DNA of 24,184 bases from a virus. The notes under the pieces were generated by a model that worked only from the letters and a program-made list of their open reading frames with translations, was not told the origin of the DNA and did not search any database. The translations under genes and the position numbers were made by a program. Location: IMG/VR virus record IMGVR_UViG_3300009495_000076, positions 1 to 24,184 of that record, one strand, 5' to 3'. Shown one piece after another: positions 2,621 through 6,346 of this stretch (position 1 is the first letter of the stretch; each line of letters starts with the position of its first letter).

Positions 2621-2914
2621 CTACGTTACAAACTTAAATAGTCCGCGAATATTATTGAAAATAAATCCCACAACACCAGCAATTAGAAACGTAGTGATGG
2701 CCCAATATGTTCCAGTCTTAGCTTGCCACTTTTCTAGGCCTCTAAGTCTGTCTTCATGGTCCTCTACTGGTGCTTGCCGCCGCTCTACTTCTTTGAGAAT
2801 TTCACGAAGCATCGCGGCGTTTTCTAGAGAGAGTTTGGTTAATGCTTTTATTTCCTCCGAGTGACGCCTTACGTCTTCCTCGATGTAATCTTCGCGGGTC
2901 CACTCTTTTGACAT
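2621..2914 (-). CDS. Coiled-coil protein with C-terminal membrane segment (XhlA-like), possible lysis protein
   Basis: The 97-residue product has a highly charged helical N-terminal two thirds. The stretch ENAAMLREILKEVERRQ and then EDHEDRLRGLEKWQ has heptad-like spacing. One hydrophobic segment follows near the C-terminus (YWAITTFLIAGVVGFIF, about 70-86). This layout is like that of haemolysin XhlA-type proteins, which often sit beside holins. It follows the holin gene and precedes the terminase genes, the slot where T7 has lysis gene 18.5, so a lysis or accessory holin role is plausible but unproven. The start is supported by AGGA eight bases upstream of the ATG. Confidence 0.7.
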   Translation of the reverse strand: MSKEWTREDYIEEDVRRHSEEIKALTKLSLENAAMLREILKEVERRQAPVEDHEDRLRGLEKWQAKTGTYWAITTFLIAGVVGFIFNNIRGLFKFVT

Positions 2915-2986: not shown

Positions 2987-3196
2987 CTAGCGTAGAGAGC
3001 TAGTTGCGGTGATCCGTCCCCAGATGGCTACAGCACCCGCGATCACCATAGCACCGTCGAGCGCTAGAGCAGTAATATCGGATTCGAGTTCGCCTGTGTC
3101 AAAGCCAAGCTGCTTGAGGCCCATGCCTAGCATCATGACTCCTACCGAGATGACAGTTTTCGACTGCCACCAAGGTTTGTTGTCGTCCATTAACAT
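2987..3196 (-). CDS. Holin (small, two membrane segments)
   Basis: The 69-residue product begins with a polar NKPWWQSKT segment. Two hydrophobic helices follow (about 13-31 and 46-61), separated by an acidic loop with Gly-Phe-Asp-Thr-Gly. This is the pattern of a widespread class of small phage holins that begin NKPW-SKTV. It would form the membrane lesion that triggers lysis. The start at 3196 has AAGGA seven bases upstream. An in-frame ATG two codons later (3190) aligns better with the paralogue at 3367 but is 13 bases from the site. The upstream ORF at 3263-3367 encodes a second copy of its N-terminal third. Confidence 0.75.
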   Translation of the reverse strand: MLMDDNKPWWQSKTVISVGVMMLGMGLKQLGFDTGELESDITALALDGAMVIAGAVAIWGRITATSSLR

Positions 3197-3218
3197 ATTG
3201 ATTTCCTTAGATTTTAGT

Positions 3219-3350
3219 TTACAAGGTGTACGTCGTAGTACCAGCAGAGCCTGTCACAGAGGCTACAAGGCTACCGTCTTTGTAGATGTAGACGCCGCCA
3301 CGCTTCCGAGCATGACCAGAACGGCCCAGACCGTCTTGGATGCGTACCAT
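3219..3350 (-). CDS. Small ORF in the -1 frame overlapping the truncated holin copy
   Basis: An ATG at 3350 opens 43 codons whose C-terminal half (GVYIYKDGSLVASVTGSAGT) looks like real protein, with a beta-strand pattern of the sort seen in fibre tips. No ribosome binding site is visible before this ATG, and the first 18 codons overlap the frame of the upstream ORF. It could be a separate coupled gene, the C-terminal half of a protein joined by frameshift to 3263-3367, or a remnant. No slippery heptamer was found in the overlap. It is not recognised as any family. Confidence 0.35.
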   Translation of the reverse strand: MVRIQDGLGRSGHARKRGGVYIYKDGSLVASVTGSAGTTTYTL

Positions 3351-3367
3351 GATTTGTTATCAGTCAT
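3263..3367 (-). CDS. 34-residue membrane peptide, truncated paralogue of the holin
   Basis: The frame starts with an ATG preceded by AAGGA, about ten bases away. Its first 22 residues, MTDNKSWYASKTVWAVLVML and on, align with the holin N-terminus (DDNKPWWQSKTVISVGVMML) encoded just downstream, and the DNA is similar too. A TAG then stops it after one membrane segment, so the second helix is missing. It is either a degenerate tandem duplicate or a one-helix peptide acting as an antiholin or pinholin partner. The region around the stop continues as coding-like sequence in the -1 frame. Confidence 0.5.
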   Translation of the reverse strand: MTDNKSWYASKTVWAVLVMLGSVAASTSTKTVAL

Positions 3368-3386
3368 TGTCTTAGGTTCCTTGTTG

Positions 3387-4385
3387 TTAGTAAGTCGTTT
3401 CAGTCACCGAAGCGTCATAGGTGTTGGTGTTTGCCACGTTGGTCGTCGGGAACGTGCGGTCTGCGGCACTTACTTGGCCCCAAATGATACGCACAGCGCC
3501 GTTACCGCCAGCCGCAGACGAGCCGTTGCCGTCATCAGTACCGCCGCCGCCACCGCCGCCATACGCGCCGCCAACACCTGTGCCACTTCCATCACCATCG
3601 GAACCATCACTGCCACCAGAGCCGCCTTTGCCGCCAATAGCGGGGGTAGTGTTGTTTGTCTGCTCAACCCCCGAACCACTGGAGCCTTGTCCGTACATAC
3701 CAACACCGCCACCCCCGGCTGCGTAATTAACATTAGAAGCATCACTACCAGCCCCCGCGCCACCACCGCCGCCGTTGCCGCCTCCCGTAGGCTCTCCATC
3801 AGTGTCCGCTGCAATACCATCACCACCAACGCCGGAGTAGCCAGCAGTACCCCCGCCGCCGCCAGCTTCACCAGTACCACCAGCGCCGCCGTTGCCGCCT
3901 CGATGGACGTTTGTGCCGACCATACCGGATGTGCTGTTTGTGGCTGTGGGATTGTCTTTATTGCCTGTTGCCCCGCCACTAACATTTCGGCCACCAACGC
4001 CACCATTAGCGAGACAAATGGTAGTACCGGAGCGCACTACGCTACTGTTGCCGCCGCTGTCGCCTGTGGGGCCACCGCCACTACTTGTGTTATTCTTGCC
4101 TGATCCACCTGATCCTACAGTTACGGTAAGAGCCTGACCCGGCGAAACTGGGAAGGAGTTGCGGTAGGCTAATCCGCCCCCGCCCCCGCCGTCACCGCCG
4201 TTCGCTCCACCGCCAGCCCCACCGCCGCCTGCACCCACGCACAGCACTGAGATGCTGGTAACGTCAGCGGGAACCGTCCACGAGGTTGTGCCTGTGCTGG
4301 TAAACAGAGCGCCACCAATAGTTGCTGCGCCGCCACCGCCCGTAACCGTTCCGATGACGTTCATCATTGATGCTACAGCACTCAT
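3387..4385 (-). CDS. Glycine-rich tail adhesin (receptor-binding tip protein)
   Basis: This 332-residue protein is dominated by Gly runs, with Asn, Ser and Thr. It opens with a beta module around SWTVPADVTSISVLCVGAGG (about 35-54), then SPGQALTVTVGSGGSG. It closes the glycine-rich part with GNGAVRIIWG, a hallmark of glycine-rich phage fibre proteins. In T4-like phages such as S16, glycine-rich tip adhesins of this kind form polyglycine-II helices and bind the host receptor. The ATG overlaps the fibre stop codon (ATGA), so it is coupled to the tail fibre and probably binds its distal end. The repetitive G/C-rich DNA creates long open antisense frames, which are shadows. Confidence 0.85.
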   Translation of the reverse strand: MSAVASMMNVIGTVTGGGGAATIGGALFTSTGTTSWTVPADVTSISVLCVGAGGGGAGGGANGGDGGGGGGLAYRNSFPVSPGQALTVTVGSGGSGKNNTSSGGGPTGDSGGNSSVVRSGTTICLANGGVGGRNVSGGATGNKDNPTATNSTSGMVGTNVHRGGNGGAGGTGEAGGGGGTAGYSGVGGDGIAADTDGEPTGGGNGGGGGAGAGSDASNVNYAAGGGGVGMYGQGSSGSGVEQTNNTTPAIGGKGGSGGSDGSDGDGSGTGVGGAYGGGGGGGTDDGNGSSAAGGNGAVRIIWGQVSAADRTFPTTNVANTNTYDASVTETTY

Positions 4386-6346
4386 GTCAGGTCACTCCCG
4401 GCAATGATCGCCTTGGTCGCGCTAACGCACGTCACGGTGGCCAGCGAGTCTGCCCCAATCGTGACTGTCGCGTTGCTCGCTACGCCCGTCGCCTCTCCGT
4501 CTTTGAAAAGCACCACGGAGCCGCTGCCTTGACCGACTGTTACCGTCCCGGTCTCACAGTAGATGGTCACAATGTCTCCCGGCGTGAGGTTTGCAGTGTC
4601 GTAGGTGGCTGCACCGTTGGCGTAGTAGAGAGTCGCGCCGCCAAGAAGTGTGTGAGTGCCGACAGTTGTGCGTGGGTTGGCCTTGCGCACGTCAACCGAG
4701 ACCGCCCCGCTGTCCCCCGCCACCGACGTTGTTAGATTTTGCGCGTCAATCGTACCGCTGCTTGTATTAATAACGGCCTGCTTGTTCCCAATGGCGTTGG
4801 TGTTGCTCCCAATGGCGTTGGTGTTGCTGTCGATTGATGCTTTGAGTGCTTTGCCCTGTTCGGCGCTAAGTGGCACCTGAGTCCCACCTGTCGTCACGTC
4901 GTTGATAACGTTGCCCGGTTGAAGCGCTGTGTCTAGTTCCGTAAGCTGAGTGGGAGTCATGAGACCAGCATTGGTACTGTCTACAACAGTGATGACAGCA
5001 TTGGTCCCAGCGTTACTTGTGACTGTACCTTGACCCGCCGCTGCGGTGTAACCAAGGTCTACAGCCTCCAACTTGTTGCCAAGAGCTGTAACCGCATCGG
5101 TCGGAAGGTTCAGATCACCCTTCACGCCACCTACACTACGACGTTCCCACTGGTTACTAGAGTTCCTGTAGAGGTAGTCGCCAGATTGAGGAGTGCTTGT
5201 GTAATCCACGTCACCCACGTTACCGAGGCTAGACGTGTTGAGAACCTGTGCAGCAGCAGCAGGGTTCCACGCAGAGCCGTTGTAATACTTGAGCTGTGTT
5301 GTGGTGGTGTCGAAGTAGATGTCACCAGCAGACAATACGCTTGCCTTCGCGGCGTTGACCGCAGCGTCAGAGGCGTAGGAGCCGAGGTATTGGTTTACAA
5401 ACGTGTTCAGCGCAGCTTCAGCAGCCGTCTGTGCAGCTAGAGCCGCTGTTGCAGAGGCTGTCGCAGATGCAGAGGACGTAGTGTTAGCAATGTCACTCCA
5501 AGCTGACCCAGTGTAGACCTTCATCCGACCATCTGTCGTATTGAAGTAAAGGTCACCAGCGTCCTTGGTGTAGCTAACGCCACTGAGGTAGGTGTCTACC
5601 GCAGCATCGTCTGCGAATTGCCCAAGGATAACCTCGCGAACAATGTCACGGGCGGATACGGCAGACGCCGCAGATGCCGCAGCATTCGTTTCGCTGGTAG
5701 AAGCGTTGGACTCACTGGAAGCCGCAGCTACTTGAGACGCCGCAGCGTTGGTTTCACTGGTAGAAGCGTTAGATTCTGAGGAAGCCGCAGCCGTCTGAGA
5801 GGCAGCACTGGCTACTTGAGACGCAGCAGCGTTAGTCTCGCTTGTGGAAGCGTTGGATTCTGAGGTTGCAGCGGCGCTTTGGGAGGCGGCAGCAGCACCA
5901 GCAGAACCTGACGCAGCCGTAGCAGACGTGGAGGCTTCAGATGCTTTGGTAATCGAGGTGTTCGTAGCGGAAGTCACAGCGTCCGTCTGGGCGTTGATCA
6001 CCGTGTTCGAGGTCTGATCGTTCTTTTCTTCGGTGTAGTCGCGGAGAAGCTTCATAGAGTCCCCGATATCCGAAGGACGGAAGATTGCACCCGCAGCCCA
6101 TGTAAAGAGGTCAGTGGAGAGGTTGGTATCTCGGGTAAAGGTTACCCGGAAGTTGTTTGGTACGTTCGCATCAAAGCGGTATGTCGAGGCGTCTACAAGA
6201 CTTCCGGGGTGAGACCCAGTTACATCTGCGAAACCTTCGTCTTCCACCTTCACTACGACGAATGAATCGTCGAGATACGAGAAGGCGATGGTAAAATCAG
6301 TCGTCGCACCGTCAGCGGTGTAGACATTTACCGTATCAGACATCAT
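4382..6346 (-). CDS. Tail fibre protein (T7 gp17-like N-terminus)
   Basis: This is the trimeric fibre that links the tail to the receptor. Residues 1-120 match the T7 gp17 anchoring domain (an FTIAFSYLDDSFVVVKV-type start and a GAIFRPSDIGDSMKLLRDYT end). An Ala/Ser/Asn/Thr helical stalk follows (about 125-215) with repeated ESNASTSETNAAAS units. Next come two related GDLYFNTT/GDIYFDTT ... GSAW modules and a short SNTNAIG tandem repeat before the C-terminal beta-rich tip. Two ATGs (6346, 6343) follow AAAGGA. The first is given, but the second has better spacing (7 nt). A frame extension by TTG at 6349 is not needed. No chaperone or hydrolase domain is evident. Length is about 654 aa against 553 in T7. 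Confidence 0.92.
   Translation of the reverse strand: MMSDTVNVYTADGATTDFTIAFSYLDDSFVVVKVEDEGFADVTGSHPGSLVDASTYRFDANVPNNFRVTFTRDTNLSTDLFTWAAGAIFRPSDIGDSMKLLRDYTEEKNDQTSNTVINAQTDAVTSATNTSITKASEASTSATAASGSAGAAAASQSAAATSESNASTSETNAAASQVASAASQTAAASSESNASTSETNAAASQVAAASSESNASTSETNAAASAASAVSARDIVREVILGQFADDAAVDTYLSGVSYTKDAGDLYFNTTDGRMKVYTGSAWSDIANTTSSASATASATAALAAQTAAEAALNTFVNQYLGSYASDAAVNAAKASVLSAGDIYFDTTTTQLKYYNGSAWNPAAAAQVLNTSSLGNVGDVDYTSTPQSGDYLYRNSSNQWERRSVGGVKGDLNLPTDAVTALGNKLEAVDLGYTAAAGQGTVTSNAGTNAVITVVDSTNAGLMTPTQLTELDTALQPGNVINDVTTGGTQVPLSAEQGKALKASIDSNTNAIGSNTNAIGNKQAVINTSSGTIDAQNLTTSVAGDSGAVSVDVRKANPRTTVGTHTLLGGATLYYANGAATYDTANLTPGDIVTIYCETGTVTVGQGSGSVVLFKDGEATGVASNATVTIGADSLATVTCVSATKAIIAGSDLT
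4790..4832 (-). repeat. 21-nt tandem repeat in the tail fibre gene
   Basis: CCAATGGCGTTGGTGTTGCT occurs twice in a row on the plus strand, encoding SNTNAIG twice on the minus strand near the fibre C-terminal region. It is a seven-residue unit. Confidence 0.6.
5679..5876 (-). repeat. Three imperfect ~50-bp repeats in the tail fibre stalk
   Basis: Copies begin near 5679, 5742 and 5826 and each encodes SESNASTSETNAAAS or a close variant. The offsets of 63 and 84 bases are 3 and 4 times 21, that is 21 and 28 residues. This keeps a seven-residue register, as in a coiled coil. Such repeats can expand or contract by recombination and change stalk length. Confidence 0.75.

Follow-up and report, generated by a model that had tools for sequence, protein, structure and literature searches.

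Among T7-like phages, exchange in the region of the tail-fibre gene is exemplified by the natural recombinant T3/7, in which one crossover lies within eight identical bases of the fibre gene; it shows changed adsorption and carries an exchanged segment that starts in the tail-fibre gene and includes the holin gene 17.5 (PMC3276506). For phage mosaicism, both annealing-protein and end-joining routes have been discussed (PMC2327257). The stretch of DNA analysed here in full (the window; 24,184 nucleotides) is a 24-kb IMG/VR virus contig of a T7-like podovirus, encoding a T7-type tail fibre together with the small and the large terminase. By its large terminase, the nearest annotated isolates are marine Roseobacter Autographiviridae, such as CRP-804 (PMC11092137), with an amino acid identity of 60.6%. 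Between a glycine-rich gene and a holin-like gene of this phage lie two short open reading frames that overlap out of frame (Table 1). We consider it highly probable (roughly 0.94) that this stretch is a scar left when a marine T7-like phage (Autographiviridae) exchanged its adhesin gene, with the 34-aa and the -1-frame ORF being by-products of the join.

Two frames and the sources of their halves

Both ORFs are located on the minus strand and overlap from 3350 to 3263, where the 43-codon ORF, which ends in GTTTYTL, is positioned one base back (-1) relative to the 34-codon ORF. The start codon of the 34-aa ORF is intact and an AAGGA Shine-Dalgarno sequence (3382-3378) is found ten bases ahead of its ATG; no Shine-Dalgarno sequence was found before the ATG of the -1-frame ORF. 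Searches of Pfam and PHROGs revealed no family matching the two fragments, and tblastn of both short peptides against annotated phages returned nothing useful.

Table 1. Position and basis of the features at and around the junction, in window coordinates
Feature	Position	Strand	Basis
Glycine-rich adhesin, 332 aa, putative incoming module	3387..4385	-	Pfam PF21722 Gly_rich_2, E=4.6e-13; phrog_4474, E=4.4e-50
34-aa ORF MTDNKSWYASKTVWAVLVMLGSVAASTSTKTVAL	3263-3367	-	chimeric ORF, created by the junction
Foreign holin head, codons 1-25 of a holin gene belonging to another phage lineage	3293..3367	-	24/25 residues equal to MTDSKSWYASKTVWAVLVMLGSVAA... of intact 68-aa holins; DNA 54/57 identical to L019
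43-aa ORF MVRIQDGLGRSGHARKRGGVYIYKDGSLVASVTGSAGTTTYTL	3219-3350	-	-1-frame ORF, created by the junction
Junction, 7-base microhomology GGCGGCG common to both parents	3293..3299	-	three-row comparison of window, L019 and L007; blastn match to L007 begins at 3299
3' remnant of an older adhesin gene, GGVYIYKDGSLVASVTGSAGTTTYTL then stop	3219..3299	-	intact gene in L007 (also L096) ends GGVYIYKNGILVASVTASTGTPVTAGTTTYTLQL; DNA 45/47 identical beside the junction
Resident intact holin-like gene, 69 aa, T7 gp17.5 position	2987..3196	-	identical in six other contigs; two hydrophobic segments

Intact 68-aa holins matching residues 1-25 of the 34-aa peptide are encoded by many other podovirus contigs in IMG/VR; beyond residue 25, the matching ends. 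Such donor-type holins were sought by a degenerate DNA pattern scan for WYASKTVWA, which identified ~25 contigs with an intact MTDSKSWYASKTVWAVLVMLGSVAARNLGVDLGPFEDEI... holin (68 aa), situated directly behind a variable adhesin wherever the contig reaches upstream, and a protein-based scan widened the set to 49 loci. The Shine-Dalgarno sequence of the foreign holin head has been carried along with the head.

The -1 frame leads to a different gene. In the contig L007, a 404-codon adhesin frame with the same kind of ending is followed at once by a holin identical to the resident one, and the end of the -1 frame in the window is therefore what is left of such an adhesin, which is glycine-rich. 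The protein-like character of this frame, which had been proposed in the earlier note, is thus borne out, since it is genuine coding sequence from the end of an adhesin gene. The adhesin tail of the window differs from that of L007 by an in-frame length difference of 18 bases and by a few bases at the end, and L007 is therefore related to the lost parent without being that parent.

When the window was compared with L019, which carries the closest donor-type holin, and with the adhesin of L007, identity was seen to switch from one parent to the other at a single point. Relative to L019, 54 of 57 bases are identical up to and including GGCGGCG, compared with 7/40 after it, whereas relative to L007 the identity is 13/50 before GGCGGCG and 45/47 from this motif on. 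The intact counterparts of the two halves are different genes in other contigs, the holin head being matched in L012-L039 and others and the adhesin tail in L007/L096, such that the comparison with relatives advocated in the earlier note has provided a source gene for both halves. The stretch is thus chimeric, with a 7-base microhomology at the join, and each frame carries meaning on one side of 3299-3293 only: STSTKTVAL, comprising the last nine residues of the 34-aa ORF, reads as adhesin DNA in the holin frame, and MVRIQDGLGRSGHARKR reads as holin DNA in the adhesin frame. Since the halves were joined without regard to frame, they are read in two different frames. Of the origins suggested before, a pseudogene after an indel comes nearest, in that a broken holin copy is present, but there is a recombination join in place of an indel.

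An identical junction is present in three other IMG/VR assemblies (L003, L005 and L006), giving four carriers including the window. Over positions 3207-3400, these three assemblies exhibit zero differences from the window, and their 7-14 differences fall elsewhere. The carriers, whose assemblies have different dataset numbers, differ by only 0.15-0.4%, and at this divergence less than one change is expected in 149 bases, so that the zero mismatches are uninformative on selection. The chimera is limited to this one near-identical population and is absent from all other relatives.

The resident holin and the adhesin slot

The resident holin-like gene sits between the adhesin and TerS/TerL, as gp17.5 does between the tail fibre/adhesin and the terminase genes, and the predicted product fits a holin, being a small membrane protein encoded at the right position. 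This essential neighbour of the scar is intact, and a scan with it recovered a 100% identical holin in the six other contigs (L002-L007). It has no significant match to a curated holin family in Pfam and PHROGs; a distant homologue in L089, which is 41% identical to the donor-type holin, matches PHROG holin family 34682 (E=5.7e-5). We note that the resident holin has two in-frame starts, M-L-M-D-D (3196-3188, minus strand), behind one Shine-Dalgarno sequence, where relatives have a single start (MLD... or MTD...); the double start recalls dual-start holins but without the added charged residue. A 97-aa protein (2621-2914, minus strand) that adjoins the holin has a C-terminal hydrophobic segment and a weak PHROG 'hemolysin' match (E=0.0011), and may represent a lysis accessory of the XhlA type.

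The DNA downstream of the adhesin slot is 98.9-99.6% identical in L002, L004 and L007, yet the adhesin arrangements differ, and the slot thus behaves as a replaceable cassette. On the upstream side, L004 matches the window at 100% identity as far as 4361, which lies a few codons into the adhesin gene, and the match resumes from 3207. The adhesin of L002/L004, which ends in GRSFPSTNVDAASSTAGEDTTTYS, and that of L014/L036 (GRSFPTTNVDAASSTAGEDTTTYA) precede different holin types, so that adhesins move between two holin lineages. More broadly, hypervariability is observed for the slot between tail fibre and holin (window 3387-4385; L002, L004, L007, L014 and L036) among phages whose downstream DNA is ~99% identical, and both holin lineages include members preceded by glycine-rich adhesins that share a C-terminus.

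The gap between the adhesin stop and the holin spans ~196 nt in the window and does not exceed 80 nt in any other relative measured, the lengths being derived from a script heuristic that picked the wrong frame in a few rows. The gap of L019 and L033 is 75-80 nt long and includes a remnant, out of frame, of a different adhesin tail (TTGVLSLAEHYQSKL or TTGVLSLAEDYQTKL). These leftovers correspond to a widespread adhesin tail, TTGVLSLAE.YQ.KL, and lie past the adhesin's own stop (L019 ~3330-3420 and L033 ~3230-3310, on the plus strand of the locus), and such scars therefore recur at this spot. Immediately ahead of the holin, many adhesins that otherwise differ share the ending PTTGVLSLAEHYQ.KL (L009, L015, L018, L029, L037, L057, L064, L073, L080 and L082), and this common end could provide a homology anchor for adhesin exchange. 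Within the tail-fibre gene, internal repeats of TSESNASTSETNAAASQ units are observed (window 5672-5891, minus strand); the fibre frame of L007 is shorter and diverges after 5092.

Other readings of the short frames

Whatever its origin, the 34-aa ORF may be translated, and its product, newly born from a recombination accident, might modulate the resident holin in an antiholin-like manner. Such a role would be compatible with the intact start codon and Shine-Dalgarno sequence, as well as with a hydrophobic segment that is, however, marginal (peak of 1.56 on the Kyte-Doolittle scale over 17 residues) and constitutes part of one membrane segment; the second holin membrane segment is missing from the peptide, and its last nine residues are wrong-frame adhesin DNA. 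The presence of the scar in four assemblies without mismatch could also be taken in favour of a function, but the population is too uniform to test selection, and the chimera is not conserved as a coding sequence beside the holin outside these near-identical carriers. The parts of the holin-truncation literature covered here show no N-terminal holin fragments acting as antagonists. Overall, we regard an antiholin-like role as improbable.

Had the local holin been duplicated in tandem and the copy then frameshifted by an indel, this would explain the resemblance of the peptide to the N-terminus of the downstream holin, before it stops. This resemblance, which was claimed in the earlier note, is confirmed and is not due to chance: 12/20 N-terminal residues are identical and the alignment score of 59 exceeds the maximum of 46 obtained with shuffled sequences, none of the 2000 shuffles reaching it. 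The further claim of a truncated duplicate of the local gene does not hold, since the peptide is far closer to the holins of other phages (24/25 residues) than to the adjoining resident holin, and the sequence after the break corresponds to an adhesin tail, with no holin in any frame. A local duplication with an indel is refuted by the comparisons with L007 and L019 and retains very little probability.

Even less credible is a single protein made from both frames by a programmed -1 frameshift, another of the origins proposed before. The overlapping frames do stand in a -1 relation, but no X XXY YYZ slippery heptamer is present in the overlap, the halves are separate genes in separate phages among the relatives, and the product would be a holin head with an adhesin tail attached, which in effect refutes this reading. 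An assembly or sequencing artefact, conceivable in that the window is a metagenomic contig, and likewise the base-call error that had been named as a possible refutation, are excluded by the independent assemblies L003, L005 and L006, which carry the identical junction along with their own scattered differences elsewhere, so that we give an artefact almost no credence.

A putative adhesin exchange and its counterparts

We therefore return to the scar of an adhesin exchange. The ancestor would have had an adhesin ending ...GGVYIYK.G.LVASV...TTTYTL directly before its own holin, as in L007 today, and the partner would have been a phage of a related lineage with a different glycine-rich adhesin and then a MTDSKSWYASKTVW-type holin. 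Most likely, recombination between these co-infecting phages replaced the adhesin, with the downstream crossover falling in GGCGGCG, a motif present both at codons 23-25 of the donor holin and in the 3' portion of the resident adhesin. The crossover would have used this tiny patch of identity between non-equivalent places, such that the recombinant acquired both the new adhesin and 25 codons from the start of the donor holin, and the final ~80 bases of its old adhesin would have persisted as presumably non-functional sequence. We suggest that the recombinant owed its survival to its own holin, which remained whole. This order of events is tentative; candidates for the enzyme route are a phage annealing protein or an end-joining accident. 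A search of IMG/VR for the exact donor, combining the adhesin of the window with an intact MTDNKSWYASKTVW holin, returned only the scar-bearing contigs and one distant adhesin.

The scar is an ordinary fossil of phage gene exchange, well resolved and unusually easy to read. It offers a clean example of a receptor-binding gene swap in a T7-like marine phage, where both parents and the 7-base junction are nameable, and the relatives show the adhesin slot changing repeatedly. It also carries the warning that what look like short 'overlapping genes' next to phage adhesins may be debris of recombination and not regulators.

Compared with the marine Roseobacter Autographiviridae, the window differs in the gene order around the packaging genes, and blastn of the scar region against annotated phages gave no DNA match. 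The junction is similar to the mosaic junctions ascribed to illegitimate or homeologous recombination (PMC2327257), both with respect to the short or absent homology at a module boundary and to selection keeping recombinants with working genes. However, those mosaics concern temperate phages, whereas the window belongs to a lineage of T7-like marine podoviruses, and the parental genes on both sides of its junction can be named. With T3/7 (PMC3276506), the window shares the swapping of a segment from the tail-fibre gene between T7-like phages, with a crossover in tiny identity. In T3/7, the positions joined by the crossover were equivalent and no gene was broken; by contrast, the crossover in the window appears to have joined the start of a donor holin to the end of a resident adhesin, so that two gene fragments remain and the resident holin alone is whole.
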